Part shown: positions 26,578 to 35,206 of the stretch, one piece after another
Numbering within the stretch: position 1 is the stretch's first letter
Layout: each line of letters starts with the position of its first letter
From: Wenxinia marina DSM 24838
Lineage (GTDB): Bacteria > Pseudomonadota > Alphaproteobacteria > Rhodobacterales > Rhodobacteraceae
Direction: 5' to 3'
Assembly: GCF_000379485.1 (NCBI RefSeq)
Contig: NZ_KB902316.1
Location: forward strand, 70,722 to 134,721
DNA: 64,000 nt
Position numbers and translations under genes: made by a program
Notes under the pieces: model-generated
What the model saw: only the letters and a program-made list of their open reading frames with translations
Database searches by the model: none
What the model was told of the DNA's origin: nothing

Positions 26578-27609
26578 TCAGTACCGCACGTCGTCGGTCC
26601 GCTCGCCCAGCAGCCCGTCCGGCTTGCCGGCGAACGCGCCGCCCAGCGCCGCGGCCAGGCCGAGAAGCGAGGCGATGGTGAGCCAGGTGGCGGTCGTGGC
26701 GAGCGCCGAGGTCGCCGCCTGCGCGGCCTCCAGCGCCTGCTGCTGGACCTGATCCAGGGTCCGGCGCATCTCGTCCACCGCTCCCTCGATCCGCGTCTCG
26801 ATCGCCTGCAGCAGACCTTCGGCGTCCTCCGCGTCGATGCCGAGCCGGCGCTCGAGCACCGCCAGCACCTGCTGCCGGTCCTCCTCGCCGAAGACGGCGT
26901 CGGGTCCGGTGACGAGGCTGTCGATGGCGTCGTTCACCTCCTCGCCGATGTCGCTAGGGTTGCGCAGCGCGTCGGCCAGCGCGCCCCGGACGATGTTGAG
27001 GGCGCGCTGCTGCTCCTGCGCGCTGACCACCGAGCGGAACGCGTCTCCGGCCTCACGGCGCAGCTGCGGCAGCGTCACGCCGGCATCGGACAGCGCCTGC
27101 TGCACCTCGGGCGGCAGATCCTCGACCGACAGCTGAGAGGCGACCTCCGAGACGTCCGGAAACGAGACGTCGTCCGGCGCCAGCGCCTCGACCGCGTTCG
27201 CGGCGCCGCGGGCGGTGTTGCCGATCATCGTCGAGGCGGCGCCGAACATCGCGCCGCCGCCCGCCACGGCCGCCCAGGCGAGGAGGAGCGTCGTCAGCGC
27301 CCAGACCGCCGCGCCGTGGAGGAGCGAGGCGACCGTCCGCGGCACGCCGGCGAGCCGCGCCGCGGCATAGCCGCCGACGACGAGCGCGACGATCTGCGAG
27401 ACGATGATCCAGATGCCCGATCCGGTGCCGAGGCCCTCCAGCGGGTTCTGCTCGTAGAGCGGATCGACCGCCGCCGCGCCGATGGCGAGGCCGAGGGTCG
27501 CGAAAAGGATCATCAGCGCCAGCGCCACGACGGTGCCGGCGAAGATGGCTCCCCAGGATACGCGTCGCGCCGTGCCGAAGCTGCCGTGTGCCGGTTCCAT
27601 CGTCGCCAT
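26578..27609 (-). CDS. Membrane protein with long helical insert, unknown function
   Basis: A 343-residue protein with about four to five membrane segments: residues about 18-45 (WGAIFAGTVVALALMILFA), 67-90, 98-130, and a last one near 305-325. Between them lies an Asp/Glu-rich soluble helical region (about 135-295), which suggests a coiled-coil or tethered domain. The start segment resembles proteins sometimes labelled PhnA-like in Rhizobiales, a name without support. It faces the XpaC/TelA operon across a 220-base divergent gap, so it may belong to the same envelope block. Confidence 0.7.
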   Translation of the reverse strand: MATMEPAHGSFGTARRVSWGAIFAGTVVALALMILFATLGLAIGAAAVDPLYEQNPLEGLGTGSGIWIIVSQIVALVVGGYAAARLAGVPRTVASLLHGAAVWALTTLLLAWAAVAGGGAMFGAASTMIGNTARGAANAVEALAPDDVSFPDVSEVASQLSVEDLPPEVQQALSDAGVTLPQLRREAGDAFRSVVSAQEQQRALNIVRGALADALRNPSDIGEEVNDAIDSLVTGPDAVFGEEDRQQVLAVLERRLGIDAEDAEGLLQAIETRIEGAVDEMRRTLDQVQQQALEAAQAATSALATTATWLTIASLLGLAAALGGAFAGKPDGLLGERTDDVRY

Positions 27610-27829
27610 GGGTCATCCTTTCCGTTTGTCCCTGATCATCAACCGGCCGGAGCGCGAATTGTTTCGTCCTGCCGCGGCGTACCGCCATGGCGGTACGGTG
27701 CCGCACGCCCGCGGCGTCGCGGAACCCCGCCCGTCCGGTCCGGATTTCCCCACCCGGCGGCTGTCCGCCCCTCGCAATCGAGGCGCCGCTTTCCTATTGT
27801 TCAGGGCGCAGGCTTTCGGAAAGGATGCC

Positions 27830-28039
27830 ATGGCACGGCTGGTCATCTTCGCGTTCGCGCTTCTCGCCGTCGCCCTCGGCGCCTTCGCCGTGGCGTCGAT
27901 CGCGGGCGGCCCCGCGCGGGCCCGCGCCGCCGCCCGACCGAAGGAGGACCGGATGCCCGACACGCTGCGAACCGTCGCCTACGTCGCCCTTCTGCTGTTG
28001 ATGCTGGGCATCGTCACCGGCTGGCTGGGAGGCGCGTGA
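27830..28039 (+). CDS. Small two-helix membrane protein
   Basis: A 69-residue protein with membrane segments at about 3-24 (LVIFAFALLAVALGAFAVASI) and 46-66 (TVAYVALLLLMLGIVTGWLGG), joined by a short basic loop. The ATG at 27830 has GGAAAGGA just upstream. Its stop overlaps the next start as TGATG, so it is coupled to the XpaC-like gene. No family is recognised. Confidence 0.7.
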   Translation: MARLVIFAFALLAVALGAFAVASIAGGPARARAAARPKEDRMPDTLRTVAYVALLLLMLGIVTGWLGGA

Positions 28040-28923
28040 TGGCCCGGCGATTCGGCGGGCGGCACTCGCCCGGCGGCGCCACGCCGCAGGAGGAGGCGAT
28101 CCGCGAGGACGCGCTGGCCGAACTGCGGGTGGATGCGGCGGGCGCGAAGGCGAACCTCCTGTTCGTGCCGCCCGCGATCCTCGTCTTCACCTCGCTGGGG
28201 GAGCCGGTGGGCCTGGTCCTCGGCCTGATCGCCGCGGGCCTTCTGTTCCTCGCCGCCTGGCTGCTGCGCGAGGGGCTGCGGGCGCATGCCGCCTACGACG
28301 CCCGCCCCATCGCCCGGCGGCCGGCGCTGCCGCGCAAGGTTCTCGCGTCCGTCCTGACGGGCGTCGGTGTCGGCATCGCCGCCGTCACCTCGACCGCCGG
28401 CCTGCTCGGCCCCGTGCTCTACGGCGTCGCCGCCGGGGCGCTGCACGTCGCCGCGTTCGGGGTCGATCCGTTGCGCGACAAGCGGGTGGAGGGGATCGAC
28501 CTGCACCAGCAGGACCGCGTCGCCCGCGTGACCGAGGAGGCGGAGGCCTACCTCGCGCAGATGAAGGACCGCATCGCGGCCCTGGGCGAGCGCAAGCTGG
28601 ACCTTCGCGTCGCCGGCTTCCAGGCGATGGCGCGGCGGATGATCCGCACGGTGGAGGAGGATCCGCGGGATCTCACCAGCGCGCGCAAGTACCTTGGCGT
28701 GTACCTGATGGGCGCGCGCGACGCGTCGGTGAAGTTCGCCGAGCACTACGCCCGGACCAAGGACGCCGAGGCGCGGGCGCAGTACGAGAGCCTGCTGACC
28801 GACCTCGAGCACAATTTCGCGGCGCGCACGACGCAGATGCTGCGGGGCGACCGCACGGACATGGACATCGAGATCAAGGTGCTGCGCGACCGCCTCGCCC
28901 GAGAGGGCGTCGGGCAGGTCTGA
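28039..28923 (+). CDS. XpaC-like 5-bromo-4-chloroindolyl phosphate hydrolysis family protein
   Basis: A 294-residue protein with two pairs of N-terminal membrane segments (about 40-80 and 98-135). A cytoplasmic helical part follows (about 150-285) containing VEGIDLHQQDRVARVTEEAEAYLAQM and KYLGVYLMGARDASVKFAEHYA, typical of XpaC. The old name comes from a colour phenotype in Bacillus; no enzyme activity is shown for the family. XpaC genes pair with telA widely, as here where telA starts 22 bases later. I infer a joint membrane-stress role. Confidence 0.85.
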   Translation: MARRFGGRHSPGGATPQEEAIREDALAELRVDAAGAKANLLFVPPAILVFTSLGEPVGLVLGLIAAGLLFLAAWLLREGLRAHAAYDARPIARRPALPRKVLASVLTGVGVGIAAVTSTAGLLGPVLYGVAAGALHVAAFGVDPLRDKRVEGIDLHQQDRVARVTEEAEAYLAQMKDRIAALGERKLDLRVAGFQAMARRMIRTVEEDPRDLTSARKYLGVYLMGARDASVKFAEHYARTKDAEARAQYESLLTDLEHNFAARTTQMLRGDRTDMDIEIKVLRDRLAREGVGQV

Positions 28924-28945
28924 CGGGAACAACGGGGAGACAGCC

Positions 28946-30154
28946 ATGACCGACGACACGATCCAGAACCGGGCCGAGGCCGCCCTGCGCGAGGCCGAGA
29001 AGGTGACGGCGGTGGTCCTGCCCGAGCCGAAGGCGGCGACCGAGGTGGTCGCGCTGGAGCAGGCGGACCCTGCCGTCAGCGCCGAGATCCGCAAGCGGAT
29101 GGAGCAGCTGGATCTCTCCAACACCAACTCCATCGTGAATTTCGGCTCCACCGCGCAGGCGCAGTTGCAGGAGATCAGCCAGTCGATGCTGGCCGGCGTG
29201 CGCAACAAGGACACCGGCCCTGCCGGCGATTCCCTGCGCCAGATCGTCACCACGATCCGAGGCTTCTCGGTCTCCGAGCTGGACGTGCGGCGCGAGCGGT
29301 CGTTCCTGGAGAAACTGCTGGGCCGCGCCGCCCCGATGGCCCGCTTCGCGGCGAAGTTCGAGGACGTGCAGGACCAGATCGACAACATCACCGACGACCT
29401 CTTGAAGCACGAGCACCTGCTGCTGAAGGACATCGAGAGCCTCGACATCCTCTACGACCGGACGCTGGCCTTCTACGACGAACTCGCCCTTTACATCGCC
29501 GCCGGCGAGGCCAAGCTGCAGGAGCTGGACACCCGGACCATTCCGGCCAAGGAGGCCGAGGTGCAGGCCGCGTCCGAGGAGCAGGGCGTGATGAAGGCGC
29601 AGGAGCTGCGCGACATCCGCGCCGCCCGCGACGACCTCGAGCGGCGGGTCCACGACCTGAAACTCACGCGGCAGGTGACGATGCAGTCGCTGCCCTCGAT
29701 CCGTCTGGTGCAGGAGAACGACAAGAGCCTGGTCACCAAGATCAACTCCACCCTCGTCAACACCGTGCCGCTGTGGGAGACGCAGCTGGCGCAGGCGGTG
29801 ACGATCCAGCGCAGCTCCGAGGCGGCCGGGGCGGTGAAGGAGGCGAACGACCTGACGAACGAACTCCTCACCCGCAACGCCGAGAACCTGCGTGCGGCCA
29901 ACAGGACCATCCGCGAGGAGATGGAGCGGGGCGTGTTCGACATCGAGGCGGTGAAGTCCGCGAACGAGAACCTGATCGCGACGATTAACGAGTCGCTTCA
30001 GATCGCCGATGAGGGCAAGGCACGGCGGGCCCGGGCCGAGGAGGATCTGCAGAAGATGGAGGCGGACCTCAAGCAGACGCTGGCGTCCGCGAAGTCCCGC
30101 TCGACCGGCCTCGGCGACACCGTCGGCGGCGCCTCCGGCGCGGCGCCGGTCTGA
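28946..30154 (+). CDS. telA: Toxic anion resistance protein TelA/KlaA family
   Basis: A 402-residue, almost all-helical cytoplasmic protein of the TelA family, linked to tellurite and other stress tolerance. Recognisable parts are IVNFGSTAQAQLQEISQSML (about 63-82), the middle EDVQDQIDNITDDLLKHEHLL, and the long C-terminal helix VKEANDLTNELLTRNAENLR. The mechanism is unknown; it may form a membrane-associated assembly with XpaC. It is in a run of closely spaced same-strand genes from 27830 to 31124. Confidence 0.92.
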   Translation: MTDDTIQNRAEAALREAEKVTAVVLPEPKAATEVVALEQADPAVSAEIRKRMEQLDLSNTNSIVNFGSTAQAQLQEISQSMLAGVRNKDTGPAGDSLRQIVTTIRGFSVSELDVRRERSFLEKLLGRAAPMARFAAKFEDVQDQIDNITDDLLKHEHLLLKDIESLDILYDRTLAFYDELALYIAAGEAKLQELDTRTIPAKEAEVQAASEEQGVMKAQELRDIRAARDDLERRVHDLKLTRQVTMQSLPSIRLVQENDKSLVTKINSTLVNTVPLWETQLAQAVTIQRSSEAAGAVKEANDLTNELLTRNAENLRAANRTIREEMERGVFDIEAVKSANENLIATINESLQIADEGKARRARAEEDLQKMEADLKQTLASAKSRSTGLGDTVGGASGAAPV

Positions 30155-30170
30155 GGAAAGGGGCGCGGTC

Positions 30171-31124
30171 ATGGCACCGGGGCGGATCGCGGCCGCGTTG
30201 ACGGCGCTGGCGATGATCGCCGCCTGCGAGCCTGTGGATACGCCGGTCGCCCCGCTTCCGGTCGAGACTCCTCAGCCGCCGCCGCCCCGCCCCGAGCCGC
30301 CGGTCGTCGAGCCGTCCGAGGCGAGCCGCGACCTCGGCCTGTTCTACCGGCGCCTGCAAGACGACCTGCTGGCGCAGGGCCTGCTCCGGACCGACGGCGG
30401 CGGCATCGACACGCCCTACACGGCGACCCACCTGTCGCGGAACTTCATCCGCATCGCCCTCTTCGACGAATACGCGCCCTCCACCGACGGGGTCCTCGTG
30501 CCGCGGCAGACGCCGAGCGTGCTGCGCCGGTGGGAGGTGCCGATCCGCGTGGGCGTGGAGTTCGGCGCCGCGGTGCCCGAGGCGCGGCGCGCCGAGGATC
30601 GCGGCGCGATCGCCCGCTACGTCTCGCGCCTGTCTCGGATCACCGGGCACGCGATGGCCACGATGCCGGAGGACGCGAACTTCCACGTCCTGATCCTGAA
30701 CGAGGACGACCGGCTGGGATACGAGGCCCGGCTGCGGCAGCTGGTGCCGGGGATCGCCGACAGCTCCGTCCGCACCTTCCTCAATCCCGGCCGCTCCACC
30801 CTGTGCCTCGTCATCGCCTTCTCGGACGGGTCCTCGCCCGGCTATACGCGGGCCGTCGCGCTGATCCGGGCCGAGCATCCGGACGGCCTGCGCCTGGCCT
30901 GCATCCACGAGGAGATCGCGCAGGGCCTGGGCCTGCCCAACGACTCGCCGCAGGCGCGGCCGTCGATCTTCAACGACGACGACGAGTTCGCCCTGCTGAC
31001 CGGCCACGACGAGAACCTGTTGCGCATCCTCTACGACCCGCGGATGCGGGCCGGCATGCCGGCGGACGAGGCGGCGCCGCTGGCGCGGACCATCGCCGAG
31101 GAGCTGGTCGGCGGCGAAAGCTGA
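30171..31124 (+). CDS. DUF2927 lipoprotein
   Basis: A 317-residue protein with a lipobox signal peptide (MAPGRIAAALTALAMIAACE, Cys19), a Pro-rich linker (about 25-45) and a DUF2927 domain (about 90-300). That domain has THLSRNFIRIALFDEY, then RAEHPDGLRLACIHEEIAQGLGLPND, whose CIHEEIAQ resembles a zinc-peptidase-like HExxx helix, but activity is not known. It is anchored to a membrane facing the periplasm. It starts 16 bases after telA, with GGAAAGGGG upstream. Confidence 0.85.
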   Translation: MAPGRIAAALTALAMIAACEPVDTPVAPLPVETPQPPPPRPEPPVVEPSEASRDLGLFYRRLQDDLLAQGLLRTDGGGIDTPYTATHLSRNFIRIALFDEYAPSTDGVLVPRQTPSVLRRWEVPIRVGVEFGAAVPEARRAEDRGAIARYVSRLSRITGHAMATMPEDANFHVLILNEDDRLGYEARLRQLVPGIADSSVRTFLNPGRSTLCLVIAFSDGSSPGYTRAVALIRAEHPDGLRLACIHEEIAQGLGLPNDSPQARPSIFNDDDEFALLTGHDENLLRILYDPRMRAGMPADEAAPLARTIAEELVGGES

Positions 31125-31180
31125 GGCTTCAACGGTTTCTTCATGCCCTGCGGCAAAGGTGCGGGCGAAGGACCCGCCCC

Positions 31181-31618
31181 ATGCTCGACCCCGCACATCA
31201 GGACCTGATCCGATCCAGCTTCCAGCGGCTGCGCTGCCGGCCGGAGGCGCTCGCCCTCGATTTCTACGGCATCCTGTTCCGGGACCAGCCGTCGCTGCGG
31301 CGCCTGTTCCCCACGGACATGGACGCCCAGGCGGCGAAGCTGTCGAAGATGCTGGTCCGCCTCGTCCGCTCGGTCGACGACCTCTCGCGGATGGAGGCGC
31401 AGCTGCGCGACCTCGGCCGCTACCATGTCCGACGCGGCACCGAGGACGGGCAGTACGCCATGGTCGGCGCCGCGCTTCTCGAGGCGCTGGAGCGTCAGAC
31501 CCGCGGCTGGACCGACGATCACCGCGCCGCCTGGACCGAGGTGTTCCGCGCCGTCGCGGCCACGATGATCGCGGGCGCGCGCGACATGCCCGCCATGCCC
31601 CGCGCCCGCAGCGCCTGA
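31181..31618 (+). CDS. Single-domain bacterial globin
   Basis: A 145-residue globin without a reductase domain. The N-terminal MLDPAHQDLIRSSFQRL matches the A helix of the flavohaemoglobin-like class. Phe43 in LRRLFPTDM is the CD1 Phe and His82 in LGRYHVRRG is the proximal F8 haem ligand. Such globins bind oxygen or NO; the role could be NO or oxygen sensing/detoxification. It follows the DUF2927 gene by 56 bases. Confidence 0.87.
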   Translation: MLDPAHQDLIRSSFQRLRCRPEALALDFYGILFRDQPSLRRLFPTDMDAQAAKLSKMLVRLVRSVDDLSRMEAQLRDLGRYHVRRGTEDGQYAMVGAALLEALERQTRGWTDDHRAAWTEVFRAVAATMIAGARDMPAMPRARSA

Positions 31619-31737
31619 CACGGAGAGTCCCCGACGTCCTTCAAGGTCAGCAGAACCCGACCCGCCGCACCGGCGCTTTTTCTGGCCGCGCCGCGGCGAA
31701 GTTGCTAGACCTTCGGCAGCACGATCCGGAGGCACCC

Positions 31738-32886
31738 ATGGGCATTCTCGACTTCCTGTCCGGCCAGTTCATCGACGTCATCGAATGGACCGACGACACC
31801 CGCGACACGATGGTCTGGCGGTTCGAACGCTACGGCCACGAGATCAAGTACGGCGCCAAGCTGACGGTGCGCGAGGGGCAGGCGGCGGTCTTCGTCCACG
31901 AGGGCCAGCTCGCCGACGTGTTCAATCCCGGGCTCTATATGCTCGAGACGAACAACATGCCGATCATGACGAACCTGCAGCACTGGGACCACGGCTTCCG
32001 CTCGCCGTTCAAGTCCGAGATCTACTTCGTCAACACGACCCGCTTCAACGGCCAGAAGTGGGGCACCAAGAATCCGATCATGTGCCGCGACCCCGAATTC
32101 GGGCCGGTCCGCCTGCGCGCCTTCGGCACCTATTCGATGCGGGTGGCCGAGCCCGGCAGGTTCATGCAGGAGATCGTCGGCACCGACGGCGAGTTCACGG
32201 CGGACGAGATCAACTTCCAGATCCGGAACGTCGTGGTGCAGGAGGTGAGCCGCGCGCTGGCCGGCTCCGGCATCGCGGTCCTCGACATGGCGGCCAACAC
32301 CGCCGACCTCGGCCGCGTCATCACCCAGGCGATCCAGCCGATCATCGCCAACTACGGCCTGTCGATCCCAGAATTCTACATCGAGAACATCTCGCTGCCG
32401 CAGGAGGTGGAGGCCGTCCTCGACAAGCGCACCTCGATGGGGATCGTGGGCGACCTGCACAAGTACGCCCAGTTCAACGCGGCCGAGGCGATGGGCAAGG
32501 CGGCGGAGAATCCGGGCGCCGCCGGCGGCGGCATGGGCGCAGGGCTGGGCGCCGGGCTCGGCATGGCGATGGGCAACATGATGATGGGCGGCCAGGCCGG
32601 ACCCTGGGGTCAGGCCCCCGCGCAGGCGGCGCCGCAGCCCGCCGCGCCGCCGCCCCCGCCGGTGGAGCATGTCTGGCACATCGCCGAGAACGGCGCGACG
32701 CACGGGCCCTATTCGAAGGCGCGGCTCGGCCGGATGGTCGCCGAAGGCGGGCTGACGCGGCAGACGCTGGTCTGGACGCAAGGTCAGGACGGCTGGAAGC
32801 CGGCCGGCGACGTGGCCGAGCTGGCGCAGCTCTTCACCGTCATGCCGCCGCCCCCGCCGCCCCCGCCCCCGGCCCCGCCGGGCTGA
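31738..32886 (+). CDS. SPFH domain protein with C-terminal GYF-like domain (YdjI/virion core-like)
   Basis: A 382-residue protein. Residues about 1-250 are the SPFH/band-7-like domain as in Bacillus YdjI: MGILDFLSGQFIDVIEW, VREGQAAVFVHEGQLADVFNPG, then LPQEVEAVLDKRTSMGIVGDL. A Gly/Met/Ala/Pro-rich linker follows (about 260-310), then a GYF_2/DUF4339 domain (about 312-367, WHIAENGATHGPYSKARL) and a poly-Pro end, which a GYF domain could bind. There is no membrane segment. In Bacillus the YdjGHI complex brings a PspA homologue to the membrane; a zinc-ribbon partner like YdjG is encoded at 34055. Confidence 0.87.
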   Translation: MGILDFLSGQFIDVIEWTDDTRDTMVWRFERYGHEIKYGAKLTVREGQAAVFVHEGQLADVFNPGLYMLETNNMPIMTNLQHWDHGFRSPFKSEIYFVNTTRFNGQKWGTKNPIMCRDPEFGPVRLRAFGTYSMRVAEPGRFMQEIVGTDGEFTADEINFQIRNVVVQEVSRALAGSGIAVLDMAANTADLGRVITQAIQPIIANYGLSIPEFYIENISLPQEVEAVLDKRTSMGIVGDLHKYAQFNAAEAMGKAAENPGAAGGGMGAGLGAGLGMAMGNMMMGGQAGPWGQAPAQAAPQPAAPPPPPVEHVWHIAENGATHGPYSKARLGRMVAEGGLTRQTLVWTQGQDGWKPAGDVAELAQLFTVMPPPPPPPPPAPPG

Positions 32887-32918
32887 GTGATCCAACGGTC
32901 ATCCCGGCCGGAGTTCAG

Positions 32919-33395
32919 ATGACAGTCGCCACCTACTCCCGCGCCCAGATCGCGCTGCACTGGACCGTGGCGATCCTCGTCGTCGCCACCTGGCTGCTCC
33001 ACGACCGGATGGAGGAGGCGTTCGACGCCCGCATGGACGGCGATGGCGTCGGCGCCCTGCCGCTCCACGCCTGGCTCGGCCTGACGGTGCTGGCGCTGAC
33101 GCTGATCCGCCTCGCGCTGCGCCTGACCCGCGGCGTGCCCCCGCCGCCCGCGGACGATCCACCCGCAATGCAGGCCGCCGCGAACTGGACCCACCGCCTG
33201 ATCTACCTCCTGCTCATCGCGATTCCCGCCGGCGGCGCCGTCGCATGGTTCGGGCAGGTGGAGGATGCGGGCGACGTCCACGGCACCATCGCCAACATCC
33301 TGATGATCATCGCGCTTGGCCACGCCCTCGTCGCGCTGTGGCATCAGTACGTGAAGAAGGACGGCCTGCTGCGACGGATGATGCGCGCCGGCTGA
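32919..33395 (+). CDS. Cytochrome b561 family protein
   Basis: A 158-residue membrane cytochrome with about four membrane segments. Likely haem histidines include His14 (RAQIALHWTVAILV), one in LPLHAWLGLTVL, one in NWTHRLIYLLLIA and one in IIALGHALVALWHQYV. It ends KDGLLRRMMRAG, the usual RM tail. It moves electrons, probably quinol to an unknown acceptor such as superoxide. A damaged second copy follows at once. Confidence 0.88.
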   Translation: MTVATYSRAQIALHWTVAILVVATWLLHDRMEEAFDARMDGDGVGALPLHAWLGLTVLALTLIRLALRLTRGVPPPPADDPPAMQAAANWTHRLIYLLLIAIPAGGAVAWFGQVEDAGDVHGTIANILMIIALGHALVALWHQYVKKDGLLRRMMRAG

Positions 33396-33425
33396 CGCCC
33401 GGCAAAACTCCGCCCTGCCGGTTCC

Positions 33426-33993
33426 GTGTCTGAGGGCAGGAGGACCGCGCGGCCCCGCCTTTCCCCCGCCCTGCCGCACCGGCGCACGGTTCTGCACTGG
33501 CTGCTCGCGCCCCTGGCGCCGTGGTTCGCCTTCCTCGACCCGGGCGAGCCGCTGCCGGACACCCGGTTCTGGCGCCTCTTCCAGTCGAACCTGGCGCCGA
33601 CCTTCGTCTCCGGCGCCCTCCTCCGGATCGGCCTCTACGCCGCCACGGCCTGACCGGCCGCCCGGGCACCCAAGCTGCCGCCCCCGGGGGCGCCGGCTGC
33701 ACCGCGTCCTGCATCACGCGCTGGTCTGGGGCCTGATCGGCGTCGCCCTCAGCGGCCTCGGCCTCGGCCTCACCGCCTCGCGCCAGTTGATGGCGGGCGG
33801 CTTCGTCCCGGTCCGCGTGCCACTCTCGATGCCCCAGCTGAACGCCTGGATCGGCTGGGTCCACGGTCGGGAGTTCTGCGCCCTCTCCGCCCTGACCGCC
33901 GTCCACGCCGCCTTCCACGTCTGGCGCCATGTCCGCCTGCGGGACAACGCGCTCCGGATCATGGCGCCCCGCTGGGACTGGCGCTGGCTCTGA
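33426..33993 (+). pseudogene. Cytochrome b561 family gene broken by a frameshift
   Basis: The 5-prime part, a GTG-started frame from 33426 to the TGA at 33651-33653, has HRRTVLHWLLAPLAPWF like the first helix of b561. The 3-prime part continues in the +1 frame as RRLHRVLHHALVWGLIGVAL, then HGREFCALSALTAVHAAFHVWRH and RDNALRIMAPR, matching the third and fourth helices with their histidines. Together they span 568 bases, about 189 codons, the size of a whole b561, so a single indel near 33640-33660 explains the break. It may be a true pseudogene or a sequencing error in this GC run. Confidence 0.65.
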
Positions 33994-34054
33994 GGGACTT
34001 GCGGCAGCCGCGCCGATTTCGCACCCTCCGCCCCGGGACGGCCGGGGGCACGAC

Positions 34055-35206
34055 ATGACCGACACGACGACCGAGACCGACGGCGATTTCGACGGCGACG
34101 GCCTGCCGCCCCCGCCCGACGAGGAGCATCGCTTCCCGTGCGAGCAGTGCGGCGCCCAGCTGACCTATCGCCCCGGCGAGACAGTTCTCACCTGCCCCTA
34201 TTGCGGCCACGAACAGCACATCTCCCCCGGCTCCGAGGACGCGGCCGAGGCGGCCTTCCGCGAGCACGATTTCGAGCGCGCCCTCGGCGGCGCCATGGCC
34301 GGCGCGGAGTACGAGGAGAGCCGCGTCGTCGCCTGCCCGAACTGCGGCGCGCGGGTCGAGATCGCCGAGGTCACCCAGGCCACCCGCTGCCCGTTCTGCG
34401 ACACGCCCGTCATCACCGACACCGGCACCCACCGCCACATCAAGCCGCAGGGCGTCGTCCCCTTCGCGCTGACCGAGGACAGGGCGCGGGACGAGCTGAA
34501 GGTCTGGCTCCGTTCCCTGTGGTTCGCGCCGAACGCGCTCAAGGACTACGCCCGCCACGGCCGGGCGATGAACGGCGTCTACGTGCCCTACTGGACCTTC
34601 GACGCCGATACGCGGTCTCAGTACACCGGCATGCGCGGGGACCACTACTACGTCACCCGCACCGTGATGCGCGACGGCAAGCGCCAGACGGTGCGCGAGC
34701 GCCGGACCCGCTGGCGCGCCGCCCGCGGCCGCGTCTCCCGCTTCTTCGACGACGTGATCGTCCTCGCCTCGCGCTCGCTACCCAAGAAGTACGCCGACGC
34801 GCTGGAGCCCTGGAACCTCTCCGAGATGAAGCCCTATGCTCCCGAGTGGCTCGCCGGCTTCTCGGCCGAGGGCTATCAGGTGGAGCTGCCGGACGGCTAT
34901 TCCGAGGCGCGGCAGATCATGGACGGCGTGATCCGGCAGGACGTCCGGGCCGACATCGGCGGCGACGTGCAGCGGATCAGCTCGCTCCATACGGACGTGA
35001 ACGACGTCACCTTCAAGCACGTCCTGCTGCCGATCTGGATCGCCGCCTACAAGTTCCGGGGCCAGACCTACCGCTTCGTCGTGAACGGTCAGTCCGGCGA
35101 GGTGCAGGGCGAGCGGCCCTACAGCCCCTGGAAGATCGCCTTCGCCGTGATCCTCGGCCTGATCGCCGCGGGCATCGCGTTCTACGTCTATGGGCAGACG
35201 CAGTAG
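34055..35206 (+). CDS. Double zinc-ribbon membrane-anchored protein (YdjG-like)
   Basis: A 383-residue protein with two zinc ribbons: Cys29/Cys32/Cys47/Cys50 and Cys94/Cys97/Cys112/Cys115 (CEQC, CPYC, CPNC, CPFC). A central domain of about 220 residues follows (NGVYVPYWTFDADTRSQYTG, RVSRFFDDVIVLASRSLP) and one C-terminal membrane segment at about 362-380. Databases often mislabel such proteins as primosomal N-prime helicase-like; there is no helicase motif here. In Bacillus the related YdjG works with the SPFH protein YdjI; the SPFH gene lies 1.2 kb upstream. Confidence 0.85.
   Translation: MTDTTTETDGDFDGDGLPPPPDEEHRFPCEQCGAQLTYRPGETVLTCPYCGHEQHISPGSEDAAEAAFREHDFERALGGAMAGAEYEESRVVACPNCGARVEIAEVTQATRCPFCDTPVITDTGTHRHIKPQGVVPFALTEDRARDELKVWLRSLWFAPNALKDYARHGRAMNGVYVPYWTFDADTRSQYTGMRGDHYYVTRTVMRDGKRQTVRERRTRWRAARGRVSRFFDDVIVLASRSLPKKYADALEPWNLSEMKPYAPEWLAGFSAEGYQVELPDGYSEARQIMDGVIRQDVRADIGGDVQRISSLHTDVNDVTFKHVLLPIWIAAYKFRGQTYRFVVNGQSGEVQGERPYSPWKIAFAVILGLIAAGIAFYVYGQTQ

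Follow-up and report, generated by a model that had tools for sequence, protein, structure and literature searches.

Does a locus that carries two modules side by side encode one machine or two? The question is raised by a stretch of 64,000 nucleotides from Wenxinia marina DSM 24838 (contig NZ_KB902316.1, positions 70,722 to 134,721; hereafter the window), which sits in a complete Rhodobacteraceae genome. In this stretch the genes for XpaC and TelA are followed on the same strand by those for an SPFH protein and a double zinc-ribbon protein (ZnR). A first-pass annotation of the letters alone had proposed a merger of XpaC-TelA with an SPFH-zinc-ribbon system. Linkage within the family, outgroup loci, broken loci and homology all support this merger, and it is somewhat probable that the locus specifies one membrane-surface stress machine built from two old modules. 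Each module is known on its own; no account of the two combined in Alphaproteobacteria was found in the literature searched, outside which most subscription journals lie.

Core genes of the locus

Ten locus proteins were scanned against Pfam, with matches well above cut-off, and hydropathy was analyzed. The genes named in the first-pass annotation were all recovered, in order and on the plus strand; only a second b561 copy had been overlooked. The core genes are as follows (window coordinates).

28039..28923, plus strand: xpaC, membrane protein (PF10112, E 1.2e-22; hydropathy)
28946..30154, plus strand: telA, soluble all-helical protein (PF05816, E 3e-107)
30171..31124, plus strand: DUF2927 predicted lipoprotein (PF11150, E 2.7e-60; hydrophobic leader, then Cys)
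31738..32886, plus strand: SPFH (Band_7_1) protein with C-terminal GYF_2 domain and poly-Pro tail, YdjI homologue (PF13421, E 3.8e-100; PF14237, E 1.7e-21)
34055..35206, plus strand: ZnR, double zinc ribbon with long-stranded beta domain and C-terminal membrane anchor, YdjG homologue (relatives, invariant Cys, model, profile match)

The PF10112 and PF05816 genes, xpaC and telA, are adjacent with a gap of 22 bp. Residues 57-140 of XpaC hold three hydrophobic segments, and a C-terminal domain follows them (hydropathy). The SPFH protein has neither a hydrophobic segment nor a membrane helix by the same analysis, so its contact with the membrane must come through partner proteins. ZnR carries a single membrane helix, at the C-terminus, and two CxxC...CxxC ribbons (C29, C32, C47, C50 and C94, C97, C112, C115), all eight cysteines being invariant across phyla. 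Its structure model (predicted local distance difference test, pLDDT, 90; predicted template modelling score, pTM, 0.84) consists of the two ribbons, very long beta strands (173-206, 209-237, 305-334) and the C-terminal helix. A fold search with this model against solved structures gave no convincing relative (best Z 4.7 over 72 residues). A likeness of ZnR to beta-barrel pores was set aside, the match probabilities being very low.

Relation of the SPFH-ZnR dyad to YdjI and YdjG

PspA is brought to the membrane by YdjI, helped by YdjG and YdjH (PMC8581546). A Bacilli-wide search detected pspA-znr-TPM-spfh operons with the gene order of Bacillus subtilis pspA-ydjG-ydjH-ydjI. The zinc-ribbon proteins of these operons matched the ZnR profiles over their full length with E about 1e-73 or better (best 2e-73 to 5e-77), and the SPFH proteins in the YdjI position matched the SPFH profile with E about 1e-67 to 1e-69. 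The relation to YdjI and YdjG assumed in the first-pass annotation was thus borne out by profile search, which connects the SPFH protein and ZnR to them at the family level by way of the Bacilli operon proteins. In Enterococcus, a gene for a TPM protein comes after the SPFH-ZnR pair, whose ZnR is 26% identical to the window ZnR over 366 amino acids. No ZnR was present at the Paenibacillus and Lysinibacillus PspA loci examined for YdjG.

SPFH-ZnR pairs without an adjacent TelA were observed in Bacillota, Bacteroidota, Spirochaetota, Verrucomicrobiota, Sumerlaeota, Actinomycetota and other Pseudomonadota. Because full-length homology ties ZnR to the proteins in the YdjG position, and SPFH is a homologue of YdjI, the pair is an old, widespread dyad, which became joined to PspA-TPM in one clade of Bacilli and to XpaC-TelA in one alphaproteobacterial clade. 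The tail of the SPFH protein is modular and may be GYF, helix-turn-helix (HTH), a double zinc ribbon or SHOCT. A poly-Pro stretch behind the GYF domain is a recurrent feature, seen in groups as far apart as Alphaproteobacteria and Bacteroidota, and suggests GYF-poly-Pro contacts between SPFH subunits.

Other contexts of the same SPFH family were also seen. In a Comamonas plasmid protein (L101:7001-8101) a helix-turn-helix end replaces GYF, suggesting a DNA-binding version. In Fusibacter (L137:7830-10996 and L161:7965-10958), a HisKA_3 histidine kinase and a LuxR-type response regulator lie 3′ of SPFH-ZnR, and this two-component pair may be another partner for the dyad. In Novosphingobium (L106:5001-9870), a pair of DUF4178 genes, one DUF350 gene and one gene for a polyamine aminopropyltransferase come after the SPFH gene, an arrangement that resembles the PspA/spermine-synthase contexts of PMC11237479.

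Linkage within and beyond Rhodobacteraceae

Within Rhodobacteraceae, the zinc-ribbon gene is present in 117 of 121 genomes and TelA in 119 of 121, including one degraded copy. In 100 of the 116 genomes with both, telA is located 5′ of znr on the same strand, at 1.3-5.9 kb (median 2.7 kb). The conserved core order is xpaC-telA-DUF2927-SPFH-GYF-ZnR, with intergenic gaps mostly below 100 bp. When 40 relatives were compared, xpaC occupied the same place in 36 and DUF2927 was at the locus in 35; the SPFH protein is 69-79% identical to those of relatives. The SPFH and ZnR genes are neighbours in most relatives, or have b561-type or other single genes between them, and they are adjacent across phyla too. 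The gene order on which the first-pass annotation had staked its proposal is kept in relatives, and it is kept also in families of Alphaproteobacteria well removed from Rhodobacteraceae. A complete operon of the Rhodobacteraceae type, scoring at the level of that family, was also seen in an assembly titled Enemella evansiae, of Actinomycetota (L156, JAFKDC010000001.1), which is probably mislabelled or contaminated.

Among 237 genomes of other Alphaproteobacteria, 7 have the zinc-ribbon gene, 17 have TelA and 6 have both (Fisher p = 3.6e-7). In 5 of these 6 genomes, drawn from four families, xpaC, telA, SPFH and ZnR are neighbours between unrelated flanks and no DUF2927 gene is present. Adjacency by chance in those non-Rhodobacteraceae genomes was computed to be about 5e-13. 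The predicted DUF2927 lipoprotein, absent from these other loci, is a Rhodobacteraceae-specific member. It contains a conserved HEE(I/L)AQG(L/M)GL-ND motif followed by ARPSIFNDD; the motif has a vague likeness to a metzincin zinc site in which the second His is replaced.

A broken locus was found in seven genomes, six of genus g8 and one of another genus (G021). In these, xpaC-telA-DUF2927-SPFH is intact and only ZnR is elsewhere. Since the broken loci retain SPFH beside xpaC-telA-DUF2927, SPFH coheres with TelA and not with ZnR alone.

In the ZnR tree (64 proteins), the TelA-linked members all fall within one alphaproteobacterial clade (support 100/99) in which three unlinked members are nested, and the PspA-TPM-linked members form another clade (99/100); some branches of this tree are long and its inner placements unsure. 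In the TelA tree, the linked TelAs cluster, with two unlinked long-branch sequences among them.

XpaC-TelA in the place of PspA-TPM

No match to PspA/IM30 (PF04012) was obtained anywhere in the whole genome of the window, so that the lack of PspA stated in the first-pass annotation holds well beyond the window. None was obtained in 38 of 60 relatives either, and no TPM-domain YdjH is present among the ten locus proteins. The separate linked clades, taken together with the PspA-free genomes, indicate that XpaC-TelA occupy the place held by PspA-TPM in Bacilli. The sigma-W regulon of B. subtilis includes both xpaC-yaaN and pspA-ydjGHI (PMC3498285), and in Listeria a membrane-active bacteriocin induces the xpaC-telA genes together with psp genes (PMC12791056).

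A stand-in role for TelA (or XpaC) in place of PspA, as had been suggested from the letters, appears plausible and fits the phylogeny. Only tentatively can this be extended to TelA as a functional replacement of PspA, which would be recruited by the YdjI/YdjG-type scaffold, with XpaC as its receptor, and would protect the membrane independently of PspA; on this view SPFH-ZnR would be a platform for docking in general, and the effector pair that docks there would have been swapped between phyla. The comparison of loci suggests a dyad that serves as a docking platform, in which the partners (PspA-TPM, XpaC-TelA, perhaps two-component systems) can be exchanged, as can the tails (GYF, HTH, zinc ribbon, SHOCT). 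For TelA and XpaC, which are widespread in envelope stress and lack a known mechanism, the PspA-TPM place beside SPFH-ZnR offers a concrete, testable role.

Proposed mechanism and its weight

In the proposed machine, the first module, the YdjI-YdjG dyad, pairs a soluble SPFH scaffold with a zinc-ribbon protein anchored in the membrane by one helix, and the second, XpaC-TelA, pairs a membrane protein with a soluble all-helical one. Under envelope stress, ZnR and XpaC would mark a site on the membrane. The SPFH protein would assemble at the marked site, where its GYF domain may bind the conserved poly-Pro tails of adjoining subunits. TelA would be recruited there, with XpaC as its membrane receptor, and would stabilise the membrane or the envelope machinery, the locus proteins thus forming a physical complex with a role in stress. 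In Rhodobacteraceae, the DUF2927 lipoprotein would be a periplasmic partner, and b561 an optional add-on.

Several observations weigh against this mechanism. PspA is present alongside the locus in 22 of 61 genomes. The separation of ZnR in seven genomes indicates that tight linkage of all parts is unneeded, and TelA-XpaC are found also without SPFH-ZnR. In most relatives the flanks are syntenic as well (tadA and rsuA upstream, fructokinase and dtd downstream), so synteny at the family level alone is no proof of a functional link; the argument therefore rests on the outgroups and the broken loci. With a terminator-like hairpin at 31663-31675, between the globin and SPFH genes, the locus may be transcribed as more than one unit. 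The AlphaFold2 model of TelA is all-helical with a long hairpin (residues 130-208 / 211-316) and a mean pLDDT of 67. Its fold matches (Foldseek, VIA-align) were pore-toxin-like and coiled-coil, at levels usual for long helices, and PspA, Vipp1 and ESCRT-III were not among the matches listed. The model being only moderately confident and its matches generic, not to PspA in particular, it neither supports nor excludes a PspA-like role. The literature yielded no interaction, localisation or phenotype data on the locus proteins in Alphaproteobacteria; for the TelA-XpaC pair, a part in tolerance of tellurite or cell-wall-active agents is known only from work on Listeria and Bacillus. Nothing relevant was found there on SPFH together with TelA or XpaC, and the Psp-partner papers PMC11237479 and PMC9239133 make no mention of TelA.

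TelA genes were also found in viruses. A scan of viral contigs with a single TelA protein gave no match, and a profile scan gave seven viral TelA genes. In one viral contig (L208) xpaC and telA are adjacent; in another (L207), an in-frame stop interrupts the matched part of telA.

Accessory and neighbouring genes

Four further features lie on the plus strand within the locus.

27830..28039, plus strand: 69-amino-acid protein with two hydrophobic helices, its gene overlapping the xpaC start (sequence)
31181..31618, plus strand: single-domain globin (PF00042, E 8e-16)
32919..33395, plus strand: cytochrome b561-type membrane protein, optional member (PF01292, E 1.2e-23)
about 33426..33993, plus strand: second b561-type gene, between b561 and ZnR, frameshifted over two reading frames (three-frame translation)

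A homologue of the 69-amino-acid protein lies immediately 5′ of xpaC in 8 of 40 relatives. The globin was rejected as a member of the system, being found at the locus in only 1 of 40 relatives, and represents a lineage-specific insertion. The divergent gene, which the first-pass annotation had noted, encodes a 343-amino-acid protein with four hydrophobic helices and a long insert separating the third from the fourth. Its homologues occur in 3 of 60 relatives and beside telA in none of the loci of 40 relatives; as it is not conserved at the locus, it too was rejected. In its 3′ half, the frameshifted b561 gene is very similar to intact b561-type genes that occupy this position in L033, L043, L050, L066 and L068; such intact relatives are found there in several genera, and the frameshift could be either real decay or a sequencing error. 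An initial dismissal of b561 as accidental was revised, since the query with the window b561 had missed other b561-type genes recurring in the gap between SPFH and ZnR.

Alternative explanations

It is possible, though we doubt it, that SPFH-ZnR is an autonomous membrane scaffold and XpaC-TelA a separate machine merely co-expressed with it under a common stress. The occurrence of each pair without the other, SPFH-ZnR doing so in many phyla, would be expected in that case, as would the B. subtilis pairs, which are co-regulated yet unlinked. It accounts less readily for the tight order and small gaps in Alphaproteobacteria, for the confinement of TelA-linked ZnRs to one clade, and for the equivalent position held in Bacilli by PspA-TPM, which contacts YdjI/YdjG.

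A locus for resistance to tellurite or other toxic anions, with SPFH and the zinc-ribbon protein as accessory metal-handling parts, is unlikely. The names TelA and XpaC derive from tellurite, ZnR has two zinc ribbons, and a Listeria telA mutant is, as quoted in PMC12791056, 2-fold more sensitive to tellurite; the mutant is, however, also 4-fold more sensitive to nisin according to the same quotation. Moreover, xpaC-yaaN and pspA-ydjGHI of B. subtilis are envelope-stress (sigma-W) genes, no ter gene was detected among the ten locus proteins scanned, and nearly every genome of the family has the locus, which is not the pattern of accessory metal-resistance genes.

Equally improbable is a conserved neighbourhood without functional meaning, in which two unrelated pairs were trapped between housekeeping genes. 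The syntenic flanks would agree with it, and so would the accidental or optional nature of the globin, b561 and divergent membrane genes. This explanation is already largely refuted by the recurrence of the four-gene core, between other flanks, in four further families of Alphaproteobacteria, and by SPFH keeping with telA in the broken loci.

The first-pass annotation had raised a redox or NO input by way of the globin and b561. A membrane complex sensing redox state or NO, with these two proteins passing electrons or a signal on to the SPFH scaffold, is very improbable: b561-type genes (one or two, some in tandem) do lie between SPFH and ZnR in an intermediate share of loci (18 of 65, window counted), and one adjoins ZnR in the g8 genome locus L039, where ZnR is apart from SPFH, but most loci have neither gene, one window copy is frameshifted and no b561 occurs in the other alphaproteobacterial loci.

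Comparison with known systems

The locus can be compared with several known systems. With flotillins (FloA/FloT, YuaF/YqiJ operons) it has the SPFH superfamily in common; unlike them, its SPFH protein has no membrane helix or hairpin, and no NfeD/YuaF-like gene is present among the locus proteins. With Ter/TelA systems (TerB/C/D/F with TelA) it shares TelA, and no Ter gene is present among its proteins. TelA of Ter systems has been predicted by others to form sub-membrane structures.

The xpaC-telA genes of B. subtilis (xpaC-yaaN) and Listeria (lmo1966-lmo1967) agree with those of the window in Pfam families, order and adjacency. They have no known link to SPFH or zinc-ribbon genes, whereas in the window the two are joined in one locus with DUF2927. 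Like Psp systems, the locus combines a peripheral helical protein, membrane anchors and a band-7 scaffold with an inferred role in envelope stress; unlike them, it belongs to a genome without PspA/IM30, and its TelA is not a PF04012 protein. A close counterpart is the pspA-ydjG-ydjH-ydjI operon of B. subtilis, in which a PF13421 SPFH protein without a membrane helix and a singly anchored double zinc-ribbon protein are likewise encoded together. The tail of YdjI is a zinc finger, and that of the window SPFH protein is GYF with poly-Pro. The window locus lacks PspA and the membrane-bound TPM protein YdjH, and has XpaC and TelA next to the pair in their stead.

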